A DNA stretch of 38,478 nucleotides, from IMG/VR virus record IMGVR_UViG_3300009163_000081, positions 1-38,478 of that record; one strand, 5' to 3'. How positions within the stretch are numbered: position 1 is the first letter of the stretch; the number at the start of each line of letters is the position of its first letter. This DNA comes from a virus. Positions 2,847-34,220 of the stretch are shown one piece after another. A program made the translations under genes and the position numbers. A model generated the notes under the pieces. That model did no database searches. It was not told where the DNA came from and worked only from the letters and a program-made list of their open reading frames with translations.

Positions 2847-5800
2847 ATGACACGTATAGTAATAGACTTTGAAACATACTACGACAAAGACTACTCACTT
2901 AAAAAAATGACGATGGAACAATACATCCGCGACTCACGCTTTGAGTGTATAGGACTGTCTATTAAAGTTGGGGGTCAACCGACCCAATTCTTTCGCGCAG
3001 AAACTTGGATTCCAGAACTTAAACAGTTATTAATTGCCCACAAAGACCATATTATCGTTTCCCATAATGCGATGTTTGATATGGGTATTTTAGGTATCCG
3101 CTATGGTATCCACCCACGCAATTTGGGAGATACTGTGGCTATGAGCGCTATTGTTGGGCTCGACAGATGTGCTGGACGCGCTAACCTTGATGGCTTATCA
3201 GCATATCTACGCACTATCGGTTATAACATACCCACCAAAGGTGATTATGTGCAGAATATGGAGGGTGTTAGAATCGCGGATATGAGTCCTACAGATTGGG
3301 CACAATATGGTGAATACTGTAAGACAGATAGTGATATTTGTGCTGCCATGTACGATATCATGCTTCCATTCATGCCGGCAGGTGAGATGGAGATGATATC
3401 TACTACGCTTAAAATGTTCACCAATCCAGCCATCAAATTAGACACAGACCTTTTGTTAGATTACGAACAACGCCTTATACAAAAGCGTGAAGATTTACTC
3501 TCTGGCGTAGCACGACGCGTCGGTTTGTCTGGCGCAGATGAATTAGCACCACACCTTCGCTCGACTGCGAAGTTCGCAAAGTTATTAGAATCAGTTGGTG
3601 TCACCGTACCGATGAAGTATAGCGAGAAGCAGGATAAGATGATACCAGCTGTCGCCAAGACAGACCATGAGTTTCTGGAGTTGGTGGCATCTGAAGATGA
3701 ACTGACTAGTGCGCTATGTGAGGCACGTCTTGGCGCTGCGAGTAACCTTGAGATGACACGCTGCAAACGCTTCATTGATATTTCTAATCGTGGTTTGATG
3801 CCAATACCCCTGCGGTATGCGGCAGCTCATACAATGCGTTACGGAGGGGCAGACAAATTGAACTGTTTTTCTGCGGGGCATGAATTACTTACGCCGGATG
3901 GATGGGTTGCTGTAGAACACTATACAGTAGGAACACCCATAGCGCAATGGCACGAGGATGCTACTATTAGTTTTGATCACGACCCATCATGGTTAGCTAG
4001 GCCATACAAAGGATTAATGTACCATATAGAGACCCCAACAGTTTCTCTAGTTGTTACACCAGACCATCGGATAAGCAGTGTAAAACAGGGCAAGCTAGAA
4101 AATGGGTTCACTATAAAAACCGCTGAACAAATAGCTAACTGTAGTGGGCTTGATTACATACCGCTATGCGGAGTTGTAGATACCCCAGAACATCCTTATA
4201 CGGACGCGCAAATACGATATCTAGTGGCTTTGCAGGCTGATGGCAGTATCGTAAAGAACCGCCATTTGTTTGGGTTCAGACGGGAGCGTAAAATAATTCG
4301 CATGAGTGAGCTGTTGGTAGAGTTGGGATTTAAGTTCACTCGTGTTCTACAGGCTAATGGTACTACTTTGTTTACTGTGACCCCGCCACCAGAGTTCGCT
4401 GTGGGGAATAAAAATTTTGGTAGTTGGATATTAAACCTAAGTGCCCGACAGTTAGGTTTATTTGTAGATGAGTTACGCTATTGGGATGGCAATAGCAATA
4501 GTAACAATGGTTCTTTGGAATACAACTCTACGGTGATGGATAATGTGTTATGGGTCGATACCGCTATGCGTCTATGCGGTCGGTTCTCTGGCGTCTATGG
4601 TTATAACTATAGCAATGGTACAGCCGATAAAGATACCCCCTATTGTTGGAGATTGTATGAGCGAACCAGTAGGTATGGCTCTATAGATACTAAACGTCAC
4701 GTAACTGCACAGGAGTTTGATGGTATTGTATATTGTCCGAAGGTGGATAGCGACCGTATATTAATAAGACACAATAATAAAATATGTGTAGTTCATCAGT
4801 GCCAGAATCTGCCAAAACGTAAGGGCGACAAGTCACTACGGCGTTCTATGACCGCCCCTAATGACCATGTTCTAATAGCCACGGATTCGAGCCAGATCGA
4901 GTGCTTAACCGGAGATAGTCTAGTGCTAACGGATACTGGATTGAAGCGGATAGATAACATTTCTATTGCAGATTTGTTGTGGGACGGTGTAGAATGGGTA
5001 CACCATGATGGAGTAATATACAAAGGAGTAAAAGATGTTATCACTTACGCTGGAATTACCGGAACACCTAACCACATCGTCTACACCAGAGATGGTAGGA
5101 AACTCACGCTCGATGAAGCTGCGGCTTCGGGAGAGGAACTCGCTGTTGGTGAGAGAGAGGGGAAACCAGTACGGACGTTGGACAGTGTTGGAGAGACCTA
5201 TACCCCTAATGGGGGTGCAGAGGGTGTGGACGCGATGCCAATGTGGGGAAGAGAAACTCACACCAATATCAGATCTGAAGTCGGGGAAGTCAACGAGCTG
5301 CAAAGCGTGTGGGCGCCGGAAGTATTTGGATATACCGGAGCTACCTGCCAACCAGCTACAAGGGCGGTACAATGCACTAGTGGAACGGTGCAAGGCAAAC
5401 AAGTTCAGCAGTCGCACCTACAAGAATGTGGAAAATATGTTCGACAACTGCGAGCACTTTGTTCGATACGTCTGGGAAAACTTCCCCCGCGAAGATTATC
5501 GGAATCTAGAAATAGACCGGATAGATACGAAGGGTCATTACGCACCCGGCAATATAAGGCTTGTGACCAGAGAGGAGAACGCCCAAACACGAGGTATGAA
5601 CGTAACTGTCACATACAAGGGTCAGGTCATAAGCGCCTCAAAGTTTGCACGAGATTATGTAAGAAACTTTGGCTCCGATTGGGTTCGGGAACAAATACGC
5701 AAGGGACTTACCGCCGAGCAAATATTAAATTTAGCGCAGGAAAGAAAGCGTCTGTATTTGGTGTTCGCAGGGGAGAAGTTTTGTATAGAATCGTTCGCGA

Positions 5801-7295
5801 GAAAGTTCGGCGCGAACTGCGGAGTGTCTCACATATCAAGGAAACTACGCAGCGCTATACGGAACGGGGAAACCCTATTGTCGGTACTGTTGCAGTATAC
5901 GATATTATCAACGCAGGAAGCCGAAACCGTTTCTGCTGTAATGGAATAATTGTTAGTAACTGTAGAGTGCTCGCGTACGCTGCGCAGGAGCTGCCCCTAC
6001 TTAACATCTTCTTGAACAAGGATGACCCGTATAGCGATATGGCGTCTAATATTTACGGCTTGCCTTACGATGTTATATATCGTGAGGCTAAGATTGAGCG
6101 TACTAAAGAAGGTATCGTGCGCCGCAACGTGGGGAAAACCACTGAACTTGGTTGTATAGCAGAAGGTACTGAGGTACTGACTGACCGCGGCTGGGTGCAG
6201 ATACAGAATATACAATCTAACGATTTGTTATGGGATGGTGATGAGTTTGTGCCTCATGATGGGTTACTCGATAGGGGATTCAAACCGTGCGCTATATTCA
6301 ATAATATTGCTTTGACCACAGACCACAAGATATATAATCATATTTCTGGTAGATGGTTTACTGTAGAGGAGATTTTATACTATACGGATTTAAGTTTGTT
6401 AGCCGACGTTATAGCAGACAGCTGCAATCAGTATAGCTTTCATGATATCCCATCGAAATACCGTAGCCACTTGGTAGAGGCGAGAAATAATAAACTAGGC
6501 ATTAACGATTTTATTACTCGGCCTATATTAAAAACCTACGATATCCTAAACGTCGGCACTAAAAATTGCTTCTATGTGCGCTCTATAAATAGGGGCAATG
6601 GTAGTTCTGTGCTGAAAGTCCACAACTGCGGATACGGCATGGGTGCAGATAAGTTTGAAGGTCAGCTAAAACTGGATGGTCTAACAGAAGCCGCCAGCAA
6701 TGCCAAGGCAATCGTACAAGCCTATCGCCGCGCCAGACCTAGTATTGTCCGGTTTTGGAAAACGTGCAGTGACGTACTTGATATCATGCTTGCAGGCGGT
6801 AAGGTATCGTTTGGTGGTCCGAACAATGACCTGTTTTTAGCAGATGGGTCAAGTGTATTCTGGGGCAAGCGGATACCGTCTGTGCGCCTGCCAAACGGCA
6901 CGTATATTTGGTATCAAAACTTACGCAAAGTACCGCGCCAAGAACCAGCCCAGTTTGGTGATGGTATGGAATTTGTGTATGACCAATTCAAAAGCAACCG
7001 ATTCGAAGTGAACCGAATCTATGGAGGTAAATTAACCGAAAACCTGATCCAAGCCCTAGCATTTGCGGTACTAAAATATCAAGCGTTACAGATAGTTGAT
7101 ATGGGCGTACCAGTGCACATGAACGTGCATGATGAATGGGTGAGCATTGTACCAAAATCAATGGCACATCATGCAGTCGCCGTACACGCCAAGGCGATGC
7201 GAACTGTACCAAACTACATCCCAGACGGGTTACTTGATATGGAACTCGATATGGGAAAAAATTATGCCGATACTACAACAATCGGTGGACTATAA
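2847..7295 (+). CDS. Family A DNA polymerase precursor with three inteins
   Basis: The 1482-residue precursor would splice to a mature enzyme of about 659 residues, close to T7-type polymerases. The N-terminus is a DEDD 3'-5' proofreading exonuclease: VIDFETYYD with Asp7 and Glu9, then SHNAMFDMGIL, then YCKTDSDICAAMYD. The polymerase motifs are all present: motif A TDSSQIE|CRVLA with Asp680, motif B RRNVGKTTELG|CGYGMG with Lys1097, and motif C NVHDEW with Asp1429 and Glu1430. The bars mark intein insertions. The third insertion is at ADKLN|CQNLPKR, the region equivalent to the conserved PNLQNIP segment. All three exteins resume at Cys. The enzyme replicates the phage genome. It has a GGAGGT ribosome site 3 bases from the ATG and an intrinsic terminator just upstream. 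Activity would require all three splicing events, because each intein disrupts the catalytic core. Confidence 0.95.
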   Translation: MTRIVIDFETYYDKDYSLKKMTMEQYIRDSRFECIGLSIKVGGQPTQFFRAETWIPELKQLLIAHKDHIIVSHNAMFDMGILGIRYGIHPRNLGDTVAMSAIVGLDRCAGRANLDGLSAYLRTIGYNIPTKGDYVQNMEGVRIADMSPTDWAQYGEYCKTDSDICAAMYDIMLPFMPAGEMEMISTTLKMFTNPAIKLDTDLLLDYEQRLIQKREDLLSGVARRVGLSGADELAPHLRSTAKFAKLLESVGVTVPMKYSEKQDKMIPAVAKTDHEFLELVASEDELTSALCEARLGAASNLEMTRCKRFIDISNRGLMPIPLRYAAAHTMRYGGADKLNCFSAGHELLTPDGWVAVEHYTVGTPIAQWHEDATISFDHDPSWLARPYKGLMYHIETPTVSLVVTPDHRISSVKQGKLENGFTIKTAEQIANCSGLDYIPLCGVVDTPEHPYTDAQIRYLVALQADGSIVKNRHLFGFRRERKIIRMSELLVELGFKFTRVLQANGTTLFTVTPPPEFAVGNKNFGSWILNLSARQLGLFVDELRYWDGNSNSNNGSLEYNSTVMDNVLWVDTAMRLCGRFSGVYGYNYSNGTADKDTPYCWRLYERTSRYGSIDTKRHVTAQEFDGIVYCPKVDSDRILIRHNNKICVVHQCQNLPKRKGDKSLRRSMTAPNDHVLIATDSSQIECLTGDSLVLTDTGLKRIDNISIADLLWDGVEWVHHDGVIYKGVKDVITYAGITGTPNHIVYTRDGRKLTLDEAAASGEELAVGEREGKPVRTLDSVGETYTPNGGAEGVDAMPMWGRETHTNIRSEVGEVNELQSVWAPEVFGYTGATCQPATRAVQCTSGTVQGKQVQQSHLQECGKYVRQLRALCSIRLGKLPPRRLSESRNRPDRYEGSLRTRQYKACDQRGERPNTRYERNCHIQGSGHKRLKVCTRLCKKLWLRLGSGTNTQGTYRRANIKFSAGKKASVFGVRRGEVLYRIVREKVRRELRSVSHIKETTQRYTERGNPIVGTVAVYDIINAGSRNRFCCNGIIVSNCRVLAYAAQELPLLNIFLNKDDPYSDMASNIYGLPYDVIYREAKIERTKEGIVRRNVGKTTELGCIAEGTEVLTDRGWVQIQNIQSNDLLWDGDEFVPHDGLLDRGFKPCAIFNNIALTTDHKIYNHISGRWFTVEEILYYTDLSLLADVIADSCNQYSFHDIPSKYRSHLVEARNNKLGINDFITRPILKTYDILNVGTKNCFYVRSINRGNGSSVLKVHNCGYGMGADKFEGQLKLDGLTEAASNAKAIVQAYRRARPSIVRFWKTCSDVLDIMLAGGKVSFGGPNNDLFLADGSSVFWGKRIPSVRLPNGTYIWYQNLRKVPRQEPAQFGDGMEFVYDQFKSNRFEVNRIYGGKLTENLIQALAFAVLKYQALQIVDMGVPVHMNVHDEWVSIVPKSMAHHAVAVHAKAMRTVPNYIPDGLLDMELDMGKNYADTTTIGGL
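3864..4799 (+). other. Intein 1 (312 residues) with LAGLIDADG homing endonuclease; ends in Gln
   Basis: Splicing block A is CFSAGHELLTPDGW. Block B includes LVVTPDHRISS. Two LAGLIDADG-type motifs (RYLVALQADGSI about 4214-4249 and LFVDELRYWDGN about 4457-4489) identify a dodecapeptide homing endonuclease. The C-terminal block ends ICVVHQ before Cys+1, so the last intein residue is Gln instead of the usual Asn. The insertion is at ADKLN|CQNLP of the polymerase. Inteins ending in Gln are uncommon but known. Splicing is therefore plausible but not certain. Confidence 0.9.
5022..5034 (+). promoter_or_regulatory. Ribosome binding site for the nested homing endonuclease gene
   Basis: AAAGGAG (5022-5028) lies 6 bases before the ATG at 5035. 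The whole leader, CAAAGGAGTAAAAGATG, is nearly identical to that of the HU-like gene, CAAAGGAGTAAAGATG at 1892-1907, differing by one A. In the polymerase frame the same bases encode Lys-Gly-Val-Lys-Asp-Val of the intein. This supports independent translation of the +1 frame. Confidence 0.7.
5035..5949 (+). CDS. HNH homing endonuclease nested out of frame inside intein 2
   Basis: This 304-codon gene runs in the +1 frame relative to the polymerase. From residue about 43 it has the plan of phage HNH/AP2-type homing endonucleases. First is GNQYGRWTVLERP and a zinc-ribbon-like region (RCQCGEE, then SCKACGRRK). Then comes YNALVERC and a core of LEIDRIDTKGHYAPGNIRLV followed by TREENAQTRG, the D-R-I-D-x-x-G-H-Y-x-P-x-N-x-R signature. 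After that are two DNA-binding repeats beginning VTYKGQVISASKFARDY and YLVFAGEKFCIESFARKF. The first 40 residues overlap intein block B and are probably non-functional leader. The stop at 5947-5949 falls 11 bases before the intein ends. A strong ribosome site precedes the ATG. Its likely role is to cut intein-less polymerase alleles and mobilise intein 2. Independent expression is inferred. Confidence 0.8.
   Translation: MLSLTLELPEHLTTSSTPEMVGNSRSMKLRLRERNSLLVRERGNQYGRWTVLERPIPLMGVQRVWTRCQCGEEKLTPISDLKSGKSTSCKACGRRKYLDIPELPANQLQGRYNALVERCKANKFSSRTYKNVENMFDNCEHFVRYVWENFPREDYRNLEIDRIDTKGHYAPGNIRLVTREENAQTRGMNVTVTYKGQVISASKFARDYVRNFGSDWVREQIRKGLTAEQILNLAQERKRLYLVFAGEKFCIESFARKFGANCGVSHISRKLRSAIRNGETLLSVLLQYTILSTQEAETVSAVME
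6153..6626 (+). other. Intein 3 (158-residue mini-intein) in polymerase motif B
   Basis: Block A is CIAEGTEVLTDRGWVQI, block B is IALTTDHKIYNH, block F is TYDILNVGTKNCFYV and the end is LKVHN before Cys+1, the canonical His-Asn/Cys junction. No endonuclease motif is present, so this is a mini-intein. It sits between Gly1102 and Cys1261 of the precursor, in RRNVGKTTELG|CGYGMG, which is the O-helix motif B of family A polymerases. It resembles intein 2 at its N-terminus (WDGDEFVPHDG and WDGVEWVHHDG), so the two are probably related. Confidence 0.92.
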
Positions 7296-7659: not shown

Positions 7660-8307
7660 ATGAATTCTTCTGTAGTTTATGTAGCTCACATGGGCGACGA
7701 CAATAGTATTGTGAACGCTGCCCGTGTCAGCTTTAATAAAGATGCCTCCAAGTTTACCCCAGAGCAAAACGCCAAGTTGATACGATACTTGGCAACTCAC
7801 GGACACTGGACACCATTTGCCCATGCGGTGTTGGCGCTAAGGTTCACTGCGCCCATCGCGATCCACGCCCAGTGTGCAAAGCACCAGATTGGCTTCGTGA
7901 TGAACACCGTGTCCCGTCGGTATGTGAGTGATACACCTGAGTTGTTCACTCCCGACTTTCGCACCAAGCCTGACGGCTCAATCAAACAAGGCAGTGGTGA
8001 TAAACACAAACGCAGTAGTGCATGGGCTTTGGAGTACACCAGCAAATGCAATGACATGATTGAAACGTATTTAAGAATGATTGCCGATGACGTAGCACCT
8101 GAGCAAGCACGTTTTATTCTACCGCAAGGGGTTTTTACCGAGTGGGTATGGACTGGTAGCCTACAGGCGTGGGCGAGGTTCTACAACCAACGTAGTGACC
8201 CTCATGCGCAGCAAGAGATACAAGAACTTGCACAGATGGTAGATGATATCATCTCACCGCTATTCCCAGTTTCTTGGGAGAACATCACTAACAAAAAGGA
8301 TGACTAA
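7660..8307 (+). CDS. thyX: Flavin-dependent thymidylate synthase ThyX
   Basis: This 215-residue protein matches the ThyX family in length and pattern: NAARVSFNKD near the N-terminus, RYLATHGHWTPFAHAVLALR, and C-terminal EQARFILPQGVFTEW followed by AWARFYNQRSDPHAQQEI. ThyX makes dTMP from dUMP using FAD and methylenetetrahydrofolate. The family signature, usually RHRxxSxNExSxRY, here reads KHQIGFVMNTVSRRY (residues 74-88): the first Arg is Lys and the Glu is Thr. Related KHQ variants occur in phage ThyX proteins, so the enzyme is probably active, but the NE-to-NT change merits attention. It is flanked by a MazG-like gene, so the two may act together on the dNTP pool. Confidence 0.93.
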   Translation: MNSSVVYVAHMGDDNSIVNAARVSFNKDASKFTPEQNAKLIRYLATHGHWTPFAHAVLALRFTAPIAIHAQCAKHQIGFVMNTVSRRYVSDTPELFTPDFRTKPDGSIKQGSGDKHKRSSAWALEYTSKCNDMIETYLRMIADDVAPEQARFILPQGVFTEWVWTGSLQAWARFYNQRSDPHAQQEIQELAQMVDDIISPLFPVSWENITNKKDD

Positions 8308-21987: not shown

Positions 21988-22425
21988 CTAGCACTCCATA
22001 TATGCTACATCAACAGCGCGTACCTTTACCGCACCATGAGTGTATTCTATATCAAATTCGTAACACCCGTTAGTGCCAAATTCTATAGCCGCTTCTATGC
22101 GCCCGTAGGCTAACATAGATAATTTGTTGTCTAGGATAAATACTGCACTGCCATCTTCGTTTATCTCATGTAACGGGTAAATAAGCTGCTTTCTTGGGAC
22201 TTCTCTAACGCGGATAACTGGTGCCACAGTATGCCCATTTGGGGGGCAGCCGCAAGGAACTGGAGCCTCTGCGGGCTCGCAAATTTCCTCATAAACAGGA
22301 CACCCACCCTGTGTTAAGATAAGGCGGTTAGGTTCTACGCTGCAAGGAGCACACGCACCTAAGTTAATTACTAACCGAGATGCGCCGTCGCAGAGTTGTA
22401 TTAGGGGTTTTCTGCACCTATTCAT
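21988..22425 (-). CDS. Cys-rich hypothetical protein (145 residues)
   Basis: The stop codon of the giant gene overlaps the ATG at 22425 (ATGAATAG), so translation is probably coupled; an in-frame ATG at 22446 lacks a ribosome site. The N-terminal half has about ten cysteines, in segments such as GACAPCSVEPN, GGCPVYEEICEP and PCGCPPNGH. The C-terminal half is beta-rich (IEAAIEFGTNGCYEFDIEYT). The cysteine pattern fits no zinc finger that I know and could form metal sites or disulfides in the virion. I do not recognise a family. It is the first gene after the giant protein. Confidence 0.65.
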   Translation of the reverse strand: MNRCRKPLIQLCDGASRLVINLGACAPCSVEPNRLILTQGGCPVYEEICEPAEAPVPCGCPPNGHTVAPVIRVREVPRKQLIYPLHEINEDGSAVFILDNKLSMLAYGRIEAAIEFGTNGCYEFDIEYTHGAVKVRAVDVAYMEC

Positions 22426-25400
22426 ATTTACTGTTTTCCTTGACATAGTTGCGGGTTAGTATATCAATATTTGCCTGTAGCGTCTGCATCCGTGTCGCAT
22501 CTGCTGGTATGCCTTTCGCACGTTGCTCATTATACGATTTGGCTTCGTCAGCAAACTGTTTCTCTAACGCTTTTCGTTCCTTAGTGAATTCTAACGTATT
22601 TTTGATAAATACGATATCTGCAGGCGTCGCACTTTCTTTAGTTAGTTTGTTAACTATCGTGTTAATCGCCTCGCCGGGCTTGTTATTAGGGTCGGTCATT
22701 TCGATGCCATACTGTGCAAGTTTATTATACGCCTTGTCCTGCACCCTGAAGGACAATATATCGGCTTGCAGCGATTGGTTGTCCACGAACGTACCAAAGC
22801 CTGTTAGAGCAGCAATAGGTGCCAGTGATCCTGCTTGTTCTGAGCGGCGCTCACGAGTTCCACCAGTAGCTTCACTTAGGTCTTGGAAGCTCGCGTCTAG
22901 GGCGCGCAAAGGTCCGTATCCGAAATACCCTTTCGATAGGTGTTGTATGGTTTCTGGGCGCATATCAACAGCACCGAACGTAACGTCGTACAACCCCGCA
23001 GCTAGGTCTCTATATCCCTGTGGCATTTTGAAATTACCTTGGGCACTATCTCGTTCACCGCGTGGTGTAGTAGCGCGTACAATTTCCGCACCTGTAAACG
23101 AGTTGCGGTTGGTGGCGAGTTCCACAATAGGTTTCAGCATTTGCGGAGTCATCGACAACACAGCCCAATCCCCCATTTCATCCCCGAACAGTTTGCTGTT
23201 GGCTAACTGGATAGGTAATGTATTCTCAACAACAATCGTTGTTAAGTCGCCCATAAGCCCTGCAGTATCGTTGGTGCCATTAGCCGTGCGATATAAACTC
23301 GCTGCCATTTGCCACATGGCACTTCCGATACCATGACCGATAGGCAAGTAGATAATACCATCGCCAAATGGGTTGGGCAGCGGTACGCCTTGTTTGAATG
23401 CTGTGCTAGGTAACTTGGCCAGTAAAGGAGTTCCATTACCGTTATCATCATCGTCATCATCCCCCAATAGGGAAGCAGCTAAGCCTAGCAAGGTTAAGTT
23501 GGTAGCCAGCAACAGCGCCATACTAGTTATATACTTCGGTATTATTACACCCGCTACTTTGCTCGCCTGTCCTTCGGTTTGGGTGAGACTGCGGATGTTA
23601 TTATACACGCCAGACATGGTAGCGCGGACGAACGGGAATAGCGCACCCATCTTGGTTTGCCAGTTTGGTGCCCGCATTGCATCGAAGCTGTCACGTACAC
23701 GGTTAGACGCTTCGGCTAAGTTAACCCCGTTGTCGATATAGGCCTGCGCCGACGCCAGAACTAGCGCAACCTGCGTGACCTCACTTAGTTGCATGAGCAT
23801 GAAGTCTAGCGCATCCTCTGACATATCCACTGCACTGCCAACTACCTCGGACTTGTTAGCTAGGCGTTTTAATCTGTTACCTGCAGCGTCTAATGCACGA
23901 GTTGATAGGGCTTTTTTATATTCCTCCATCATGTTTTGCTTTTCAACCAAGTCCGTTTGTAAGTGGATAGCCCCGCGGCCATACATCTCATGCAAGACAT
24001 ATTGAAGTTTAGTTTTCACCTCGCCTGTTGTGATGTAGCGATATATCTCACGGCGCTTACCGATTGTCATATTCTCAGCAACGTGCGCCGCATGACTCGC
24101 TATTAAGCTAGTTACGCTCACAGGATTGCCGTTCACGTCCACCACATCACGGAAGGCGGCAGTAGTAGCGCGTTCCCAAGTTTCGTTAAATACGTTAGTG
24201 AACAACTGGAACCGCGGGTTAAATCTGGTCATCAACTGCGAGGCAAAGCGCGTGTACGCACGGGTCTCCGCCATGATACCGCCTAGCAAACCATTACCAT
24301 CTGCGCTCTCGCCAAGCGTGATATTACGTCCGATCTGCTCTTGGATAACCGTATCGGTGAAATAATAGTTCATGCGAACATACTGCTGGTTACCATTGGC
24401 ATCTGCGATATGCCCCCACGCACTTATCGGGCGCACGTCTTTAAGATTCGCGGGTTCCTTACCTGGCAAATATCGCACTATGCCTGGGATTTCCCCCTTC
24501 TGCTCTAGCTCCTCCAATCGCTTAGTTGAGAACACCCCAGTCTGATTCACATTCTGCCAAGTACCTTCGTACAACAATTCAATTTCTCGGCGCAGTGGAG
24601 CCTGTGCAATGAGGCTACCGTGTTGACGCGTGAACAGTAGCAAGTTGGTGTACGCATCTGCAGCGGGTTCAGACGAACCATCACGACTATAGCGCGTTAC
24701 ATCGTCTTGCAGTCCAAGAGAACGCACTTGTCGCGTTGGATATTTACGTAACAAGTCTGCAAGCTCAGACGATTCTACGTTTTCCTCGTTTGTCGGATTC
24801 AAGTCAGCAGGAGTTAGTGACTTTCTGTATAACGCCACATACTTCTTAAACCCGATATCCTTGAAGCGTTTATAGTCACTAGCACGATACACACCAGACG
24901 CGCCGGCAAAGATAGTCGCACGGTTATATGCCTTAACAATATCTGCTGCCGTGCTATCTAAATCTGCTATATCATACATAGATTTTAGACGGTCAAATTC
25001 TTGCTGCGCTTGACGACGAGTGTAACCACCAGGCATTTTGACTTGCCCTTCTACTACGTTGCCGTTAGCGTCTGTATCCCCGTTCCACAAGACATTATTA
25101 TTGGCATCTAACACGAGTTTAGATCGAGCGTTGACGAGTTGTGATAGCTTGGTGGTTGCTTGTCTAATTTCATCCGCCCGTTTCGCGCTGTTGACGTTCA
25201 CCGTAGCTTGCTGCAACAGAGCAGGGTCTAGTACAAACGGTAGGCTATCTATCGTATCTTGGATATCGTCGATACGTTTGGTTAGGGCGTCCCGCTGGGC
25301 GATGGCAGAGTTTTTAGCCTTACTCGCCGCATTTTTGTCCTTCGCCGACGCATTAGGATTTGAAAGCACGGCATCCTGTGCTGCTATAGTTAGGTTATAT

Positions 25401-28400
25401 CTAGCGACTTCTATTTGCATCGCGGTCTGATGGGCAGTGAGTATCAAGTATTGATCCGCAACGGCTCGGTCAATCGGCGTTGTAGTTCCTTCTATTGTAC
25501 TGCGGATTACGAGTAGTTGGTTCTCAAGACGAGTTCGATTGCGCGCTGCTATATCACGGTCAGCCTGTGCCGCAGATACCTCTCTGGCCGAACTATTGGG
25601 GTCCGCAATAATGGCATCTTGCAACGCCATAATCTGCACGTAGGTGTCAATTTCGCCCTCTTTCGCACGGATATGTTCATTAAACCCCTCTGATAGCAGG
25701 TGATCTAACGTAGCGTAACGCCCAAAGTCCTCAGCAACTTCTTGGAAGCCTTTGCGATACTTGTAGCTTAATTTCTCCAACTTCTTAGTTATGGGTGTGA
25801 TGTTAGCTGTTGTCATCTCACGCACAGCCGCGTTAGCCATACCACCAATAGCAGATAGTATCATAGAGAAACGTGGTGAGTCAGACTCAACCCCAACAAC
25901 AGGTGCTCCGTACTTGATAAGTAGATTATCTAACGCGGGTTTCGCCCCGTTAGTGAGATAGATAATTGTACCAAGCGCCCCTTTAAGTTTACCTGGCAAT
26001 CTATCCCCGACGTTCCATGGCTTAGCTTGTAAGTCGTTTTCTAGCGCTTGTTGCAGTGATTTATCTGTCATAGTACGGAATAAGTTAGTTTCTGCGAAGA
26101 ATAAATCTTGCAACACAGCTTCATCTAATCCACCAACACGGGTCATATAATCGAACCACTGCGCTTGGTGCATCGCACTAGCCAGCTCGTTTACCTTGAA
26201 CTGCTGTGCCGCAGATGTGGTAGGAGTCGCTGGCACGGGGCTAGGGGGAGCAGGGGAGGCAGTGGAAGCCTGTGGTGTTACTGTAGCCGCTATAGCCGCT
26301 GCGGGTGTTTGTTGTGCCACAGGTGCTTGTAGCTGGGCTAGTGTGGGTTGTGTCGCGTTGCGGCGGCTAGTAAGTCTACGCGCGCGGCGGTTATTCTGTA
26401 CGATTAGTCCACCAGCCCCCAAACTACCTAATACACCTAATACAACACCCGCGATATCCCAACCACTCTCTGTAGTGACGTCCGGTGCCACTGTATCGAA
26501 GGCAGGTTTAGTTGATTGCTCTAGTGGCGTATGCGTACCTTGAGGTACGTTCATTGTCGAATGAGATACCCCGTTAATGGCAACTGGTTTAACCATAGCT
26601 ACTTGGCCACTTGGCTTGGTGCCCTCAATGGTTATCGGCGCAGTTGATATAGTCTCTGTAACTACCGGCTCTACCGCTGTCTGTGCTGATACTACTGCAC
26701 TCGCAGGAACAGGGGCTTGCGTAGTCGTTTTCGTTGCACGAGTCGGGGCACGCAGTTCAGTGGCGCGTTGAGTAGTTACCGCCGGCGCTTGTACGCCACG
26801 TGGACGATAGGGACTCGCTTTTGTCTCAGGTAGAACGTACACGTAACCGTCAAACACACTATCTAAATGAGCGTTGTAGAAACTGCTAGGTACGTTGATA
26901 CACCCGTTAGAAACACGGTTATCTGTAACGCTTTTAGAGGCAAGTTGCGCCGGGCGATTCTCTGCACCATTCGCTGTGTAAGTGCGGTGAATTGATACCG
27001 TGCCAACACTTGACTGCACAAGTTGCCCAGAGGAATCCGCTAGTGCCTGTACTGTGCCACCATACCCTTTAGCCGGTGTAGAAGCATATTTAATTGTGAA
27101 CTTGCCAGCAGGGGTCGCACCCGCTCGCGTGGTATCTGATATATTTTTACCAAACAACGCAGGAGTGGTAGCTAGTAGATTACCTTGTGCGTCGAACAGA
27201 TGAACTGCACCGCCTTTTTTGTCCGCGATGATATATGGTTTATTTGCGTTATCCCCATTTTGTTGGATATATTGACGGGCAGCGTTCGCGTCTTGGGTTA
27301 GCGCCGCGATTGGACTGGTTACGGTTATCGGGGTAGTCGCCGCGTACGCATCGTTGCTACTGGTCATACCCGTGTAGGCAGCGAGTGCCACAGCGACCAC
27401 GGCAACTGTATTTTTAATGGTGTTCCATATACGGTCAATGATACGCTTAATCCGACTATCCGCCTCTGCAGCTGCGATCAAAGGGTCGGTAGGTGCGTCA
27501 CGATTAACACGGTTTGAAATGACCTGCTCTACCAAGTCCTCAGCAGTAACTTCTTCCTCGTTTCGTGACTCTAGGAAGGCGTCTACTACATCGCGCTCTT
27601 GCGTAGTGATGACGTCTGCAACAGTTTTTTGTCCCACACTTTCGTCAGTGTTTCGGTTCGCTTTTTGGCGGTTCAGCTGTCTATCGGCAAAACCTTTATC
27701 CACGTATCCTGCTATTTTATCTAATGCGGAATTTTGCACGTCTGTTAGATTTTCTTGAGGTGAGGTTAGTAGGTCTGTTACATGGGCTACTAAATCAGCA
27801 CCTTTTAGTTCGCCGACACCTAAAGAAGCCTTTTCCTCAGAGGTAAGTAGCTTTCTTGCAAACGCGGCTTTAATTTGGTTGGGAGATACAGTGTCTAGTC
27901 GGGCTTCTGTAGGAGCTGCTGTGTCGCGCTGGTTATCTGATTCTTGCACAGTCTCAGTAGTATCGGGCACTGTGTCTACGGTTGTGGTTTCTAGAGACGC
28001 AGGTACATTTTCTGGCTCCGCAGTCGGTTCTGGCTCAGCTAAAGAACCTTGTTGTTCATTAGCGCTTAACTCATTTTTAAGGGCGCCTAACTTAGCATCT
28101 ACCTGCGCATTGCCTGTGTACGAATATTGCAGTGGAAGCAAACCTGTTTTTTGTGGCGCAAATGGACGCTCTTGGATAGGTCTATTTTCCATGCCAGGAC
28201 TAAAGTTCACCCATGAGTTTTGCCCCCGTGTCTCTGTAGTTAGCGCCCACGCAGCCCATGGTGAACGCATCATCGCCATGTGGTTCTTCCATGCAGCTTC
28301 TTCCCCTTTAGGACCAAACGCTACAGGCGATACAGTGTGGGCGTAGTAGTCATGCACGGCACGGAATAAATCGTTATATAGAAGTTCTTTGCCGGGCTCA

Positions 28401-31400
28401 TTGTAGCGCGCATCGCCTTCTTCTACGATACTACCATCAGCATCCAAAATCTTAATGCCCGATGGTTGTAGCAGTGGATGGCTAGAATAGTCTATGGAGG
28501 GGTCGCTACCAAAGGTGTCTGGCTCAGTTGCAAAAATTGACAGGTGATTATTGTCTAGGATATCGCGGCGCATCTCAGTAGAGCTGGCATACGGCTCGCC
28601 TTGCCCAGATAGCAAGTCTACCTTAATGGGCATAGATAAGAATTGTTCTTTCACTTCGTCGGCGAGTTCTGTATACGCACGCTGAACCAACGGATTAGAT
28701 AAGTCATCCATCGGCATAGCTTCATAGTCGTCGCGTATTTGTGTCTGTAGCTCGCGCTGCTGTGGAGTGATATCCTGTTGCACTGCAGGTTCAACGGGGC
28801 GACCTACTTGATCCTCAGCGATACGGCGAGCTGTTACTGATTCTGGGGCGGCACTCTGGGTACGAAGCCCACTTGCAATTTGGTTGTAGGGGATGCCGCC
28901 GAACTCTCCGTAAATGTAGAGACGTTGTGTTTTGCGTCGAACTCCGCTACTCTTTGTGCCAAGTAATTGTTGGGCGCGTTCTGCTGAGTTGAAGAACTCG
29001 TCAATTTGCTCGTTAGCTTTCTCACTTCCCACCTCTCCTACGTAGTAAAATTCTAAATATTGTTCGTTGGCGGTCAAGCCAACAAGTCCGCTTTCTGTCA
29101 TTATACGGTTAAGCTCCGCATCTGACAATGGCTCGTTTAGGGCGACTCGATAAACGGGAGTTGCAAACGAACCATCGCCAAACTCGTATCCCACTTCTGC
29201 ATCGGTATCTTCACGCACATGAACTTGCTGTTGGTTGAAATTGTCTGCAAATTTGGCTAATGCTGCCAGCAGTTCTGGAATAGCATCAGGGTTAGTCACC
29301 GTTACCGTTATACCAAGACTCGGTTCCTTATCCCCCTTATATAGCCCGTATGAGTCAACCGATGACAGTTCAACTCCATCAATCGCGCCAGTCAAGCGAG
29401 TAAGCATATCCTTCGCCACATGATGCAATAGAGTAGCAGCTTGTGCGTCACCTGCGTCTACGCGTTGTTGTAGGCGTCGTAGTCCTGGTATCGAATAGGT
29501 ACTGGCGCTTAATGTGATGTCGAACGCATCCGGCTCCATAGGTTGCGGTGGAGCCGATGGAACAGGTGCAGTCGGACGTGTAACATCTGCAGTGGCGCCA
29601 TCTAGTTGAATAGGGCCACTTGAATAGCGAGTTAATTCTTGCGCTGCTGGCGCTTCTGTTGTATCAGCTGTAGGAGCTGTTGTTTCTGCTGCTCGCTGCG
29701 TGGCAATACTCTCGATAGGACTAACGCGAGTTTTTTGCGTTGGGGCATTGGTTTTTGCTGTGCTGTCATAGTTTGGAATCCTATTATTGATAAACCCCTC
29801 GGTCATGTGTAGAGGTACAGTTGGGGTGAGTGTATCTACTGTCGATTTCTTATTATACGAGTTGAACGTGGACATCTTATCAATGCCCGTAATTTCTACT
29901 GACGGCAAGGCGCCATCGTCTGGTACGAATATAATTCGCCCATTCTCGCGTACTAAAGAGCCTATTGTCGACGTACCATTCTGTTCGCGTTTCACTGCTA
30001 ACTTATTATTGTCGATATAGGCGAACATTCTATCTGCTGTCGAACCAACATGAATATCGCTGGTGGCAACTTTACGGATACGCTCTTTCACCGCAGGGCT
30101 TTTGCTTGTTAGTTTGCGTTTGCCTGTACGCTGGCTAGGTGGCAACAGCAGCTGTTCCACTGCCCCTGTTATATCTGGTGATGACGTGGTAAGCGTATAC
30201 TCAGGGGTTACTTGAGTAACCGGACCCACATTTGCTGACTGAGTAGTAACCGATTGGTTGGAGTTGTTTACATAATCCTCCAAGATAGCAATTCTATCTG
30301 ATACATTAGGGTAATTTTCTACTAGTCCCGAAACTGCTGATTCCAGCAGGTCAACTTCGTTTAAGTCCCTGGCGTGTTCGTAGGCAAGCTCCAACGCATC
30401 TTGATAATCATTATATAGTTTGGTGCTCTCTAACATGGACGCCGCTTCAAGTACAGCTTCTTGCTGTAGCAAAATATCCCCAGAGGTTAAGGCGTCCAGT
30501 AAATCTGGAGAGGATAGAGCAATAGTTTCTAGTGCGTCTAGCGCGGCTTCTTCATTGCCGTCAAAGTAACTAGATAAAATGTCTAGGGCGGCAGTAAATT
30601 CTGCTTCTACATCAATAATAGGTGTTTGCAATGATTCAGTTAGAGCGGCATCGACTTCTTGCTCTGTGCTACTTGGCAGTAAAGAATTATATATACCTTC
30701 CCAAATAGCATCGGCTTGCCTGCCGGCTTGATTAGTTCGATTAGCGATCTGGTTGGTGGTTCTCGGCCCACGAGTATTAACGGAACGGAATCCTAAGTCA
30801 AATAGGCTAGAGGTAGTATTAACGTCCCCAACATGGATATCGCTATCGCCGTTGTAGGGGACAAAGAATATATTTTTCCCCCGCTGAACTAATATGCCGG
30901 TTTCCCCATTACGGGTAACTTCCATCCCTATTACACTAGGGTCGTTCAACGGGGTGTCTAGTTGAGATGAAAGGGGCTTAACTTTAGTAGTCTCAATAGG
31001 ACCTTGCGCTCGATAGGCATGGTCTACATCGGCTAAAATCTCGGCATTGGTAAGTCCATTTCGTACGCCCGAAACGAACGCATCCATCATGCGAGCTATT
31101 TTTTCCTGCGAAGTCGTAGCCTCAGCTCTGGCGAACAAAGGTTCCACCTGAGACAACAAGTCACTAGAATTAGAAGCCTGTCTAAGGCGCCGCTGCACTG
31201 GTGCACTAGGACGGGTAACAACAGCAGTGTTACCACTTGGTAGCGCAATAGTTTGTATCGGTCTAGTAGGCGGCGCTACAGTTGTGCCGTTAGCTAATGT
31301 TACACTCTGAGTTCCTTGGATAGGAGCGCTTGGGCGTTGAGCATTTGTGTTGCGTTTTGCCTGCGAAGTTGCAGCGCTTCCACTGCTAACTGGCGTTGGC

Positions 31401-34159
31401 GCTGTGACGGATCCAGGTTGTCCAGTGGATTGCCCGCTGTTGGTTTGTCCAGTAGTCCCCGTTCCAATAAGCGGTCCACTAGATGCTGTAGGCGCTGCGG
31501 CAACTTGCGAAGCCTGCCCAACTGGATTTCCCCCTGTTGACTGTGCAACACTTCTGCTAGGGCTTTGGCTAGTTTGGGGGGCAGGTTGGATGAGATTTGT
31601 CGGGGTAAAGGTTTGTTGTGCAAGATTATTTCCACTGCCTTGTGCACTAGAAGCTGCTGCTGTTCCTGGGACATTTGTTCCCATGAGGGGTTGGACTTGG
31701 GTAGGCTGTCCGGCAACTGGCTGAGCGCTTGACGGAACTTGGTTAAGTCCTGCTTGCTGCTGGGCGACTTGGGCATCTGTCATTCTCCGTGGTGTTACGT
31801 CGATATAGTCGTGCATATACCGATCTAACTGATTTTTCTGTTCTTCTGTTAGGTCTGGATTTCGCTCATAAATATCTGGGCGAATCATGGTAGTCCACCG
31901 AAGCATACGCTCTTTGGTAGATTCGTTGATATTTGGGTCAACAGCTTGCAATGCCTGTGCTGTCGCTGTAGCCAAAACAGGGTCCGATATCGCTGTACCG
32001 TTATTAGTTTTTACAGCAATGGCATCTTTTGTCATGTCGCTTGAAGCAGAGTTAGCATCACTGGCATAGAACGCGAGTAATTCTGCTGTCTTGGCGGCGT
32101 AGTCGTATGGGTTTGTATTAATGTCGTTGAACGCAGTTGCGATATAACTTTTAATTTCAGCTTGTTGCACTGGAGTTAGGCGATTTTGTAATATATCACT
32201 CTCATAAACTGCATCGAAAAATGCCTGTCGCCCTGAATACCCTGTAGATGCCCCACCTTGAGGTGACACTTCGCTTGGGATGCGCTCTAGGCCTTCATAT
32301 AAAACTTTGTTGATACTGCTTGTGTCTAGTTTACCCGCATCTGCTAAGTTCTGTAGTAATCCTACGCGCTCATTCACCAAGTCAGATAGTACATCACCAG
32401 ATACTGCGGGTTGACCACTCGGCGTTGGACCGGCGTTGGGGTTTAGTGCACGCGCGTTAAGTACGTCGACAGTGGTACTAGCGATAGTAGGGGCAGCGCT
32501 CATTACACCGCCCAATACGCCACCAATACCCGCGTTATATCCGACATCCTTCATCGGGTCGGCTTCCGCAGCTGCTACGTTAGCTAGGTACTGAGTCGCA
32601 CCTTCTTCTAGTCCCTCAGACGCAATAGCCGCACCAAATAGTCCTGCGTTCTTAGCTACAGCTGTTTTTGCTGAACCAACCGCAGCTTGTGCCGCGCCAC
32701 GAGACAGCACCTTTCCAACCGCTAGAGAGGCTAATGTTTCTGGCCCAAACACAGAGAGTGCGGCCCCCATAAGGAACCCGACACCTGCTTTATCATTTGC
32801 GGCTACCGTAGCAATGTTGCGGCGGGCTAATTCTTTATTACCACCCGCCTGTGCCAACGCTGCATCCCACCCCTTGATACGTTTTAGTTGAGCATCGTCA
32901 GCAGATAAAATAGCGTCACGGGCAGAGGAAACCACATCAGACGAGGTGAATAAACCGCCCGCTGTGGATGATGCAGCGATGGTAGCAGCTGCGGGTGCGT
33001 TGCGCATGATTAGACCAGTACCAATACTCGCCAACATAGGGGTAATTGAATCTAGACTCAGCGCATACCAGTTATCTTTGGCTGCCCCTATACCTTCACT
33101 AATTTGCCCAGCCAATGTAAGCTGCTTACCCTCTTTGGCTAACTCTAATTCTTTTTTGGCTTTGGTGTAGCCTAGATTAGCTAGGCTGTCCTTCACCTCT
33201 GCTGAGTAGCCTTCCTTGATATCTTTTTGCTGCTGAAAGTAGCGGTCTGCTTTAGCGGTTTGTTCCGTCAGTTTTCCGGCTAATTCGTTTACGATAGTAT
33301 TACGCAGCGGTTGTGGTAGTGGTTTATCAGCGATCGTATAATTGGTAAGTTGTCGCCGTGTGGTTTCGGATAACAAGTTACCATTACTTATTACAGACGT
33401 GCCGGATTTTATCGCGTCAATATCTTTGCTAATGCTGGATGCTTTTGACCCTTCGTACCCACCAAGCAAGCCCTTAGAAAAACTAGCGACACTAGTTTTT
33501 AGGTCACTAAAAAAATGTGAACCATCGTTAACAATAGCATCGACGTCTTTGTTTAGCTGACTATATAACAAACCCTGTGTTTCGTTGAACACCGCGGTCT
33601 GCAGGTCTGGGTCTTTAATCTCCGCCGCGAGTGCAGTTTTCTGATTAGCCAAGAAACTGGTTACCATATCTTTTTTCTTTTCCGTACTGGCTGCTTTGTA
33701 TTCCGGCGAATTTAGCAGTACGTTTGCACGGGGTTGAGCAACTTTGAGTGGATCGGCTTTGATTTTTTCTTTTAGTTCCTTCTCAAGCTCTTTCTGCTTA
33801 GCCTCCTGCTCCTTGATAGCGGCTTGACGCAGTTTCTCTTGCTCCACACGCTGCTGCTGTATAGCTTGCTGTTGTTTTAACGCGGCGGCTTGTTGTGCTT
33901 GGGATGCCTCAATTTGATTTTGTATGGCAGCGTTGGTTTTGTTGCTCAGCTCGATGACATTTTGTGCCGCGTTTAACCCCTCTGTTACCATTTTCTGGGC
34001 GCCAGCGGACAACTCGATTGGTTTGTTAGCATCTTTGACAAAATCACCCAATAATGACGTAGCCGTTGTCGGTTTCTGTTGAGCAAACGGGTCCACTTTG
34101 CCAAACACGCTACTTGTCATATCTTCAATTTTGGGTAAGTCAATCAGATTATTAGCCAT
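22418..34159 (-). CDS. Giant polyvalent-type virion protein (3913 residues) with L,D-transpeptidase domain
   Basis: Start ATG 34159 (MANNLIDLPKI, after GGATGGGG) is preferred to an in-frame ATG at 34204. The N-terminus is a Gln/Lys coiled coil (about 70-150). An Ala/Gly-rich hydrophobic region follows at about 450-550 and Gln/Ser/Pro linkers at about 790-990. Around 1930-1988 is a motif I know from large phage proteins: NDLFRAVHDYYAH and TETRGQNSWVN. A hydrophobic segment (VAVVAVALAAYTGMTS) precedes a YkuD L,D-transpeptidase domain (about 2305-2445) with His2391 and catalytic Cys2420 in SNGCINV. A second hydrophobic segment follows near 2570. The C-terminal region (about 3260-3563) resembles the LPD38 domain of polyvalent proteins (RFNPRFQLFTNVFNE) and carries a third hydrophobic segment and a poly-Asp run. 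It is probably ejected with the DNA, with the YkuD domain acting on peptidoglycan. Confidence 0.85.
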   Translation of the reverse strand: MANNLIDLPKIEDMTSSVFGKVDPFAQQKPTTATSLLGDFVKDANKPIELSAGAQKMVTEGLNAAQNVIELSNKTNAAIQNQIEASQAQQAAALKQQQAIQQQRVEQEKLRQAAIKEQEAKQKELEKELKEKIKADPLKVAQPRANVLLNSPEYKAASTEKKKDMVTSFLANQKTALAAEIKDPDLQTAVFNETQGLLYSQLNKDVDAIVNDGSHFFSDLKTSVASFSKGLLGGYEGSKASSISKDIDAIKSGTSVISNGNLLSETTRRQLTNYTIADKPLPQPLRNTIVNELAGKLTEQTAKADRYFQQQKDIKEGYSAEVKDSLANLGYTKAKKELELAKEGKQLTLAGQISEGIGAAKDNWYALSLDSITPMLASIGTGLIMRNAPAAATIAASSTAGGLFTSSDVVSSARDAILSADDAQLKRIKGWDAALAQAGGNKELARRNIATVAANDKAGVGFLMGAALSVFGPETLASLAVGKVLSRGAAQAAVGSAKTAVAKNAGLFGAAIASEGLEEGATQYLANVAAAEADPMKDVGYNAGIGGVLGGVMSAAPTIASTTVDVLNARALNPNAGPTPSGQPAVSGDVLSDLVNERVGLLQNLADAGKLDTSSINKVLYEGLERIPSEVSPQGGASTGYSGRQAFFDAVYESDILQNRLTPVQQAEIKSYIATAFNDINTNPYDYAAKTAELLAFYASDANSASSDMTKDAIAVKTNNGTAISDPVLATATAQALQAVDPNINESTKERMLRWTTMIRPDIYERNPDLTEEQKNQLDRYMHDYIDVTPRRMTDAQVAQQQAGLNQVPSSAQPVAGQPTQVQPLMGTNVPGTAAASSAQGSGNNLAQQTFTPTNLIQPAPQTSQSPSRSVAQSTGGNPVGQASQVAAAPTASSGPLIGTGTTGQTNSGQSTGQPGSVTAPTPVSSGSAATSQAKRNTNAQRPSAPIQGTQSVTLANGTTVAPPTRPIQTIALPSGNTAVVTRPSAPVQRRLRQASNSSDLLSQVEPLFARAEATTSQEKIARMMDAFVSGVRNGLTNAEILADVDHAYRAQGPIETTKVKPLSSQLDTPLNDPSVIGMEVTRNGETGILVQRGKNIFFVPYNGDSDIHVGDVNTTSSLFDLGFRSVNTRGPRTTNQIANRTNQAGRQADAIWEGIYNSLLPSSTEQEVDAALTESLQTPIIDVEAEFTAALDILSSYFDGNEEAALDALETIALSSPDLLDALTSGDILLQQEAVLEAASMLESTKLYNDYQDALELAYEHARDLNEVDLLESAVSGLVENYPNVSDRIAILEDYVNNSNQSVTTQSANVGPVTQVTPEYTLTTSSPDITGAVEQLLLPPSQRTGKRKLTSKSPAVKERIRKVATSDIHVGSTADRMFAYIDNNKLAVKREQNGTSTIGSLVRENGRIIFVPDDGALPSVEITGIDKMSTFNSYNKKSTVDTLTPTVPLHMTEGFINNRIPNYDSTAKTNAPTQKTRVSPIESIATQRAAETTAPTADTTEAPAAQELTRYSSGPIQLDGATADVTRPTAPVPSAPPQPMEPDAFDITLSASTYSIPGLRRLQQRVDAGDAQAATLLHHVAKDMLTRLTGAIDGVELSSVDSYGLYKGDKEPSLGITVTVTNPDAIPELLAALAKFADNFNQQQVHVREDTDAEVGYEFGDGSFATPVYRVALNEPLSDAELNRIMTESGLVGLTANEQYLEFYYVGEVGSEKANEQIDEFFNSAERAQQLLGTKSSGVRRKTQRLYIYGEFGGIPYNQIASGLRTQSAAPESVTARRIAEDQVGRPVEPAVQQDITPQQRELQTQIRDDYEAMPMDDLSNPLVQRAYTELADEVKEQFLSMPIKVDLLSGQGEPYASSTEMRRDILDNNHLSIFATEPDTFGSDPSIDYSSHPLLQPSGIKILDADGSIVEEGDARYNEPGKELLYNDLFRAVHDYYAHTVSPVAFGPKGEEAAWKNHMAMMRSPWAAWALTTETRGQNSWVNFSPGMENRPIQERPFAPQKTGLLPLQYSYTGNAQVDAKLGALKNELSANEQQGSLAEPEPTAEPENVPASLETTTVDTVPDTTETVQESDNQRDTAAPTEARLDTVSPNQIKAAFARKLLTSEEKASLGVGELKGADLVAHVTDLLTSPQENLTDVQNSALDKIAGYVDKGFADRQLNRQKANRNTDESVGQKTVADVITTQERDVVDAFLESRNEEEVTAEDLVEQVISNRVNRDAPTDPLIAAAEADSRIKRIIDRIWNTIKNTVAVVAVALAAYTGMTSSNDAYAATTPITVTSPIAALTQDANAARQYIQQNGDNANKPYIIADKKGGAVHLFDAQGNLLATTPALFGKNISDTTRAGATPAGKFTIKYASTPAKGYGGTVQALADSSGQLVQSSVGTVSIHRTYTANGAENRPAQLASKSVTDNRVSNGCINVPSSFYNAHLDSVFDGYVYVLPETKASPYRPRGVQAPAVTTQRATELRAPTRATKTTTQAPVPASAVVSAQTAVEPVVTETISTAPITIEGTKPSGQVAMVKPVAINGVSHSTMNVPQGTHTPLEQSTKPAFDTVAPDVTTESGWDIAGVVLGVLGSLGAGGLIVQNNRRARRLTSRRNATQPTLAQLQAPVAQQTPAAAIAATVTPQASTASPAPPSPVPATPTTSAAQQFKVNELASAMHQAQWFDYMTRVGGLDEAVLQDLFFAETNLFRTMTDKSLQQALENDLQAKPWNVGDRLPGKLKGALGTIIYLTNGAKPALDNLLIKYGAPVVGVESDSPRFSMILSAIGGMANAAVREMTTANITPITKKLEKLSYKYRKGFQEVAEDFGRYATLDHLLSEGFNEHIRAKEGEIDTYVQIMALQDAIIADPNSSAREVSAAQADRDIAARNRTRLENQLLVIRSTIEGTTTPIDRAVADQYLILTAHQTAMQIEVARYNLTIAAQDAVLSNPNASAKDKNAASKAKNSAIAQRDALTKRIDDIQDTIDSLPFVLDPALLQQATVNVNSAKRADEIRQATTKLSQLVNARSKLVLDANNNVLWNGDTDANGNVVEGQVKMPGGYTRRQAQQEFDRLKSMYDIADLDSTAADIVKAYNRATIFAGASGVYRASDYKRFKDIGFKKYVALYRKSLTPADLNPTNEENVESSELADLLRKYPTRQVRSLGLQDDVTRYSRDGSSEPAADAYTNLLLFTRQHGSLIAQAPLRREIELLYEGTWQNVNQTGVFSTKRLEELEQKGEIPGIVRYLPGKEPANLKDVRPISAWGHIADANGNQQYVRMNYYFTDTVIQEQIGRNITLGESADGNGLLGGIMAETRAYTRFASQLMTRFNPRFQLFTNVFNETWERATTAAFRDVVDVNGNPVSVTSLIASHAAHVAENMTIGKRREIYRYITTGEVKTKLQYVLHEMYGRGAIHLQTDLVEKQNMMEEYKKALSTRALDAAGNRLKRLANKSEVVGSAVDMSEDALDFMLMQLSEVTQVALVLASAQAYIDNGVNLAEASNRVRDSFDAMRAPNWQTKMGALFPFVRATMSGVYNNIRSLTQTEGQASKVAGVIIPKYITSMALLLATNLTLLGLAASLLGDDDDDDNGNGTPLLAKLPSTAFKQGVPLPNPFGDGIIYLPIGHGIGSAMWQMAASLYRTANGTNDTAGLMGDLTTIVVENTLPIQLANSKLFGDEMGDWAVLSMTPQMLKPIVELATNRNSFTGAEIVRATTPRGERDSAQGNFKMPQGYRDLAAGLYDVTFGAVDMRPETIQHLSKGYFGYGPLRALDASFQDLSEATGGTRERRSEQAGSLAPIAALTGFGTFVDNQSLQADILSFRVQDKAYNKLAQYGIEMTDPNNKPGEAINTIVNKLTKESATPADIVFIKNTLEFTKERKALEKQFADEAKSYNEQRAKGIPADATRMQTLQANIDILTRNYVKENSKYE

Positions 34160-34220
34160 CGCCCCATCCTGTAATAATAAATGAAATAATTTATATATTA
34201 CCATCTAAGCTATGGGGCGA
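34159..34220 (-). promoter_or_regulatory. RNA hairpin covering the start of the giant gene
   Basis: On the minus-strand transcript, the 9-base arm TCGCCCCAT (34220-34212) pairs perfectly with ATGGGGCGA (34167-34159), which contains the ribosome-site G run and the A of the AUG. Inside, 34201-34190 pairs with 34181-34171 (11 base pairs with one bulge) around an 8-base loop. The structure would hide the ribosome site and start codon of the giant protein. Confidence 0.55.

Follow-up and report, generated by a model that had tools for sequence, protein, structure and literature searches.

Textbook inteins carry the endonuclease as a domain. In classical large inteins, an in-frame LAGLIDADG or HNH endonuclease interrupts the Hint domain, and the nuclease and the splicing domain form one polypeptide. 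Another kind of nesting is found in group I introns with endonuclease ORFs, in which an independent nuclease ORF lies within a self-splicing element that is removed at the RNA level. In the accessible literature, we found one close precedent for the arrangement reported here, the ShiLan element (PMC11855218); a 2025 preprint cited there may also overlap with it. The ShiLan domain and the Pacc40 gp60 insertion are stop-free insertions in mycobacteriophage DNA methylases that contain an HNH endonuclease in another reading frame (PMC11855218), and another methylase of the ShiLan kind is mentioned in PMC12613952. According to PMC11855218, which cites the preprint of Gosselin, Arsenault and Gogarten (bioRxiv 2025.01.02.630785), overlapping frames are frequent in actinobacteriophages. 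This preprint on actinobacteriophage inteins of "non-canonical architecture" may deal with the same architecture; however, actinobacteriophages are the subject of its title, whereas the intein family presented here is mostly found elsewhere. The accessible parts of five other papers (PMC7886860, PMC5050341, PMC6669764, PMC10448857 and PMC5418858) do not describe the present arrangement.

Here, we analyzed a viral DNA stretch of 38,478 nucleotides (IMG/VR record IMGVR_UViG_3300009163_000081; hereafter the window) that contains a family A DNA polymerase (PolA) gene with three inteins. It is very probable that the second of them (intein 2) is a two-gene mobile element, composed of a mini-intein and an overprinted, independent gene for a putative HNH homing endonuclease. 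Like ShiLan, the intein 2 family represents a stop-free insertion in a phage gene, with an HNH endonuclease in another frame and a disjunct distribution; however, a splicing domain was not detectable in ShiLan, the insert of which stays in the protein according to its authors (PMC11855218, accessible parts), whereas in intein 2 the Hint domain flanks the HNH gene. Leaderless GTG initiation, with no detectable ribosome-binding site, has been proposed for ShiLan, whereas a Shine-Dalgarno (SD) sequence is present in intein 2; the accessible parts of the same paper contain no selection test on both ShiLan frames. A similar case is phage APSE-1 (NC_000935), in which P46, annotated as an HNH endonuclease, is nested in the DNA polymerase P45 and uses the same reading frame as the HNH of the intein 2 family. 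APSE-1 differs from the window in its insertion site, and P45 is not called an intein in NC_000935. Intein 2 resembles the classical large inteins in that the endonuclease interrupts the Hint domain, but its nuclease and splicing domain would be two proteins from two frames. It also resembles group I introns in its nested independent ORF, but its removal would take place at the protein level, so that both frames must stay open.

Positions 2847-7295 (+) form a single open frame of 1482 codons that matched the DNA polymerase family phrog_17 (E=1.9e-52). The exteins (2847-3863, 4800-4901, 5961-6152 and 6627-7292, +) give a polymerase of 659 aa once spliced, in which the exonuclease domain DNA_pol_A_exo1 was matched. 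A PF00476 search of the window's record gave nothing at E<=0.001, probably because the inteins split the polymerase domain. The three inserted blocks are intein 1 (3864-4799, 312 aa, junction ADKLN/CQNLP), intein 2 (4902-5960, 353 aa, junction SQIE/CRVLA) and intein 3 (6153-6626, 158 aa, junction TELG/CGYGMG), and in all of them both the first residue and the next extein residue are Cys. Each junction is uninterrupted in Rhizobium phage RHph_TM3_14A and Pseudomonas phage KPP25, two relatives without inteins, in which the window's Cys is replaced by V/L, A/A and L/L at junctions 1, 2 and 3, respectively. Hence, precise in-frame insertion together with empty alleles in homologues was observed at all three sites.

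An earlier note on this DNA had proposed three inteins in one polymerase, with exactly these junctions at Cys, and on both points it was correct. It had also regarded homologues with continuous sequence as a possible refutation; such homologues do exist in the two phages mentioned above, but they are empty alleles, and the inteins are therefore not refuted by them. Its assertion that all insertion sites are in catalytic motifs was true for sites 2 and 3, which we take to be polymerase motifs A and B, and not for site 1, presumably a conserved PolA segment upstream of the other two sites and outside motifs A, B and C. From the positions of the inteins, it may soundly be inferred that the polymerase needs splicing before the enzyme can work. 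In loci L183, L196 and L247, further intein-like starts were noticed at a PolA segment (GRF/GRW) close to the position of intein 1 in the window. Viral contig scans with the spliced polymerase alone, intein 1 alone or the window's HNH alone brought back only a same-sequence contig; IMGVR 3300010885_033718 (L001, L002, L018 and L261) has the same sequence as the window and was not considered independent.

Inteins 1 and 3, whose Hint assignment rests on sequence, appear to be an ordinary in-frame LAGLIDADG-type intein and an ordinary mini-intein, respectively. Intein 1 (3864-4799, +) is full-length, and its in-frame LAGLIDADG-type segment contains two motifs, ADG (~4230-4240) and YWDG (~4470-4490), both of which are common to its relatives. 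The relatives whose alignments were inspected cover 99% of its length at 27-31% identity; they are located in mycobacteriophage primases, a Proteus phage protein and staphylococcal phage nicotinamide phosphoribosyltransferases. LAGLIDADG_3 was matched in four of six members of this family, whereas the copy in the window had no match at E<=0.1, so that the LAGLIDADG-type assignment, in agreement with the earlier note, is based on family and motif. A PDB sequence search with intein 1 gave a single match (E=0.14). The last residue of intein 1 is Gln rather than Asn, an exception that is also found in other inteins. In intein 3 (6153-6626, +), no HNH match was found in any frame, consistent with the previous suggestion that it has no endonuclease. 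Inteins 2 and 3 both show the usual intein signature (Cys/Ser at position 1, TxxH in block B and a final Asn followed by Cys/Ser/Thr).

In the polymerase frame, intein 2 (4902-5960, +) contains an N-terminal Hint part (residues 1-90; 4902-5171, +) and a C-terminal Hint part (residues 331-353; 5892-5960, +), the blocks of which were modelled with pLDDT of 91-98 and 95-97, respectively. Confidence of the model was limited to these two parts; most of the middle had pLDDT below 50, and no family match was found for it in profile searches. Using this model, Foldseek matched the gp41-1, Ssp DnaB and Npu DnaE inteins, and the predicted structure has the Hint fold. The nested HNH endonuclease gene (5035-5949, +; 304 aa) is in the +1 frame and both starts and stops within intein 2, its stop being 11 bases before the intein end. 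The SD sequence AAAGGAG (5022-5028, +) is six bases before the HNH ATG and within the Hint coding region.

The out-of-frame HNH reported in the earlier note was confirmed by a PHROGs match of this ORF to phrog_374 (E=1.5e-21), which identifies the HNH domain on sequence, and the ORF has Zn-ribbon-like cysteines as well as the family's invariant cysteines and HNH-core residues. Its AlphaFold model had a pLDDT of 82 (~94 in the core). The best row in VIA-align of the model was the HNH enzyme PacI, with a modest Z of 7.1 (below Z 8) over 81 residues; Foldseek alone with the same model returned nothing at E<=0.001, and among PDB sequences the HNH profile had only two chance-like matches. All 33 alternate-frame ORFs in our alignment, which was assembled from ORFs picked by our own HNH profile, matched phrog_374 and phrog_3377, and one of the 33, not the window's ORF, matched Pfam HNH_3. 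In 20,000 synonymous recodings of intein 2, the +1 frame of 305 codons was never kept open (null maximum 265), and chance is thereby excluded for the window's HNH frame. In the intein frame of window intein 2, the expectation is ~21 stops, and each of 20,000 recodings contained at least one.

The out-of-frame arrangement was surveyed in phage, viral and bacterial sequences. Matches of both frames overlapped within annotated DNA polymerases of Streptococcus phages. Among 15 intein-matching loci, the HNH was out of the polymerase frame in 13 (eight +1 and five +2, with L008 among them being a remnant), and the other two had a mini-intein. The nested gene was annotated in only one of the 12 annotated HNH-bearing records, namely P46 of APSE-1. 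A viral contig scan with the Hint part alone returned 494 confirmed relatives, and the best 80 of these 494 gave 72 unique inteins, 58 of which had the HNH out of frame (55 +1 and three +2), 14 had none and none had it in frame. Similarly, the best 80 of 84 relatives in bacterial genomes gave 83 unique inteins, with the HNH out of frame in 63 (60 +1 and three +2), absent in 19 and in frame in one. This sole in-frame case (L242) is a locus where a frameshift joins the polymerase frame to the HNH frame; it may be a sequencing or assembly error or a natural fusion. After collapsing of identical-start Hint matches (126 to 101 for viral plus phage inteins and 87 to 83 for genomes), no in-frame HNH was found among the 101 viral and phage inteins. 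The best-80 selections bias this survey to close relatives of the query, and the out-of-frame counts include short remnants in the mini-inteins L008, L202, L205, L207 and L248. Loci from the HNH-based scan (L098-L177) were kept outside the percentages and used in the pair tests.

The carriers among the best 80 of the 84 genome relatives were assemblies of Bacillota, Actinomycetota, Spirochaetota, Synergistota, Pseudomonadota and Verrucomicrobiota, presumably as prophages. Host genes of the family include PolA, a DnaB-like helicase and SF2-type DNA helicases. One polymerase (L041) has two inteins (4001-4858 and 5333-6250), with HNH frames +2 and +1, respectively. An out-of-frame HNH is the normal state of this large intein family. 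It is likely that these dual-frame inteins represent a widespread class that spans several bacterial phyla, in phages as well as in presumed prophages, with an independent HNH gene, an SD in conserved Hint codons and both frames selected to stay open.

Evidence for the two frames came from the codon positions at which related inteins differ. Node-disjoint pairs were used, which have no intein in common but may share ancestry; pairs that were >98.5% identical or had fewer than 10 core changes were dropped. In 43 of 43 such pairs, substitutions within the HNH core were most frequent at third codon positions of the HNH frame, and in 40 of the 43 those within Hint-N were most frequent at third codon positions of the intein frame. 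The HNH third position corresponds to polymerase position 1 in +1 inteins and position 2 in +2 inteins, and the summed core changes by intein codon position were 3143/1590/1362 and 115/323/190, respectively. In the last 60 bases of the inteins, the substitution pattern was back to the polymerase frame. A smaller earlier set had given the core pattern in 18/18 and the Hint-N pattern in 16/18 node-disjoint pairs, and in 68/68 and 67/68, respectively, when every pair of that set with 10 or more core changes was counted.

For window intein 2, L019 at the same site is the only fairly close relative (55% nucleotide identity), and this comparison gave 19/14/40 changes in Hint-N, 101/56/56 in the core and 10/7/17 in Hint-C. 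With more distant motif-A relatives, the core pattern was clear for L077 (70/48/45), weaker for L020 (71/59/48) and absent for L090 (52/54/45), and the fourth, L025, gave no testable core pattern. On the whole, the substitutions indicate that the HNH frame is under purifying selection. As the core changes track the HNH frame, the filler of intein 2 would be a passenger as protein, and yet it must stay open: in 136 HNH cores, we found no stop in the intein frame, whereas synonymous recoding predicts ~1540 and the third frame contains 1716.

Signals for translation of the HNH gene were also found in the family. In 116 +1 inteins, the mean SD match before HNH-frame ATGs near the start was 5.17, compared with 2.45 in a null of recodings preserving the intein protein (the highest of 300 null means was 3.05), and there was no excess in the control frame (0.67 vs 0.63). 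This signal is significant in aggregate, with single inteins reaching p<=0.05 in eight of 68. The SD is embedded in Hint codons, often the Lys-Glu-Val codons ahead of the ATG. Almost no SD was observed in +2 inteins (n=11). Mini-inteins keep the SD excess (4.29 vs 2.38), which is expected if they descended from HNH carriers, although an explanation by Hint codons also fits. The HNH stop is within the intein in 113 of 142 cases; the remaining 29 frames end 7-61 bases beyond the intein, except L184, which adjoins masked sequence.

The three inteins of the window, with their different endonuclease status, had previously been considered as three stages of the homing cycle in one gene. This view was not supported for the out-of-frame HNH, because the out-of-frame position is the usual location of the endonuclease in this family, and the HNH frame is under purifying selection and has an SD/ATG above chance. 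True stages of the cycle, as far as sequences can tell, are those that differ between alleles: empty, with a full HNH, with a prematurely stopped HNH, with a core-deleted HNH and with a mini-intein. For the streptococcal phage polymerase, six of 55 records cover at least 99% of the query, intein included, and represent the occupied allele. Another 11 records (H172-H182), relatives of L003, are empty alleles with two-piece matches at 84-90% identity, whose span is exactly 927 bases (309 codons) shorter than that part of the query. In L005 (Streptococcus phage PhiSdyV1524, 3640-4230), the HNH frame stops at 197 codons, compared with 259 codons in near-identical relatives, and the polymerase frame is intact, suggesting a real decay stage. 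L033 and L035 have upstream flanks that are 99.5% identical and the same intein sequence apart from a deletion: 531 bases of the HNH core are gone from L033 between four bases of microhomology, and both ends of the HNH frame remain. L033 thus looks like a mini-intein that has only just arisen.

The natural explanation of this allele pattern would be homing. In the HNH tree, which was built by quick search with site labels from a rough pattern (seven of 108 rows labelled "other"), insertion sites changed 22 times, compared with a mean of 46.3 after shuffling and no value as low in 200 shuffles, and the window's HNH (as L001) paired with L019 from the same insertion site with a support of 98. 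Clustering of HNH lineages by site also fits vertical descent. In 27 of 30 listed pairs, intein identity was higher than extein identity, the other three being equal or partly reversed; this agrees with homing, but would equally be seen if overlapping genes evolve more slowly.

Taken as a two-gene mobile element, intein 2 would work as follows. In the polymerase frame, its two Hint halves would be joined by ~230 residues of disordered filler, and the DNA of this filler, read one base on, would be an independent HNH gene that has a ribosome-binding site, a start and a stop to itself. A ribosome would make the entire polymerase precursor, from which intein 2 would then excise itself, and separate ribosomes would initiate at the internal AAAGGAG-N6-ATG to produce a free HNH nuclease. 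The free nuclease could cut polymerase genes that lack the intein, at its insertion site or close by, and repair of the cut gene would copy the intein and the nuclease in together. It is unlikely, on the other hand, that the HNH still functions but has lost its role in homing and, for instance, attacks the genomes of competing phages or regulates the polymerase: exclusion of competitors by HNH nucleases is known from phages (PMC6669764, accessible part), but both the association of HNH lineage with insertion site and the coexistence of empty and occupied alleles at 84-90% identity are predicted by homing. We also consider it quite improbable that the HNH is made by ribosomal frameshifting, as a fusion of N-extein, Hint and HNH, rather than by internal initiation. 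The occurrence of both +1 and +2 frames, the near lack of SD in +2 members and the continuation of the polymerase frame into the HNH frame in L242 would agree with frameshifting. However, L242 is the only such locus and its frameshift may come from misassembly, the SD excess was observed at HNH-frame ATGs of 116 inteins, and the HNH frame of the window opens at 5032, only three bases before its SD-preceded ATG.

Decay was another explanation to be considered, in which the out-of-frame HNH is the relic of an in-frame or free-standing nuclease gene that was knocked out and is decaying towards a mini-intein. Truncated and deleted forms do exist, such as L005 with its premature stop and L008 and L033, which look like deletion products. 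However, the third-position pattern is kept even in recent pairs (15/2/3 for L060/L062 and 36/9/6 for L114/L142), the HNH-frame core pattern of 43/43 pairs and the SD/ATG excess argue against decay, and an in-frame ancestor was not seen in any of the 101 viral and phage inteins, which makes a relic very unlikely. It is hardly conceivable that the insertion is an RNA intron with an HNH ORF and only incidental similarity to Hint. An HNH ORF that has a separate start would be typical of a group I intron, but no group I or II intron family reached the Rfam gathering thresholds in the window, one tRNA being the only RNA that did. Moreover, an intron would not need a polymerase frame with no stop in 136 cores, and the Hint halves evolve as protein and were modelled as an intein fold.

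If this reading of intein 2 is right, splicing and homing are uncoupled as proteins and locked together in DNA. An endonuclease that is a separate overprinted gene in a whole family changes how inteins should be annotated, and the arrangement would explain how inteins can be mobile when their own frame contains no endonuclease. Active homing may also occur in other phage inteins, namely those whose long linkers have had no explanation. Dual-frame inteins are also a natural model of overlapping genes that have to satisfy two different demands, and splicing and homing can be knocked out separately in them.

Several other genes of the window were also noted. A gene for an OrfB-like transposase (685-1803, -; phrog_506, E=4.5e-143), which we take to be TnpB-like, is located ~1 kb upstream of the polymerase. 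Downstream, positions 7660-8307 (+) encode a ThyX-like thymidylate synthase of family phrog_26005. This family also matches window inteins 2 and 3 in a different part of its profile, and a relative of these inteins therefore seems to be inserted in the ThyX-like gene of other phages. Finally, one open frame of 3928 codons (22418-34204, -) occupies almost a third of the window.
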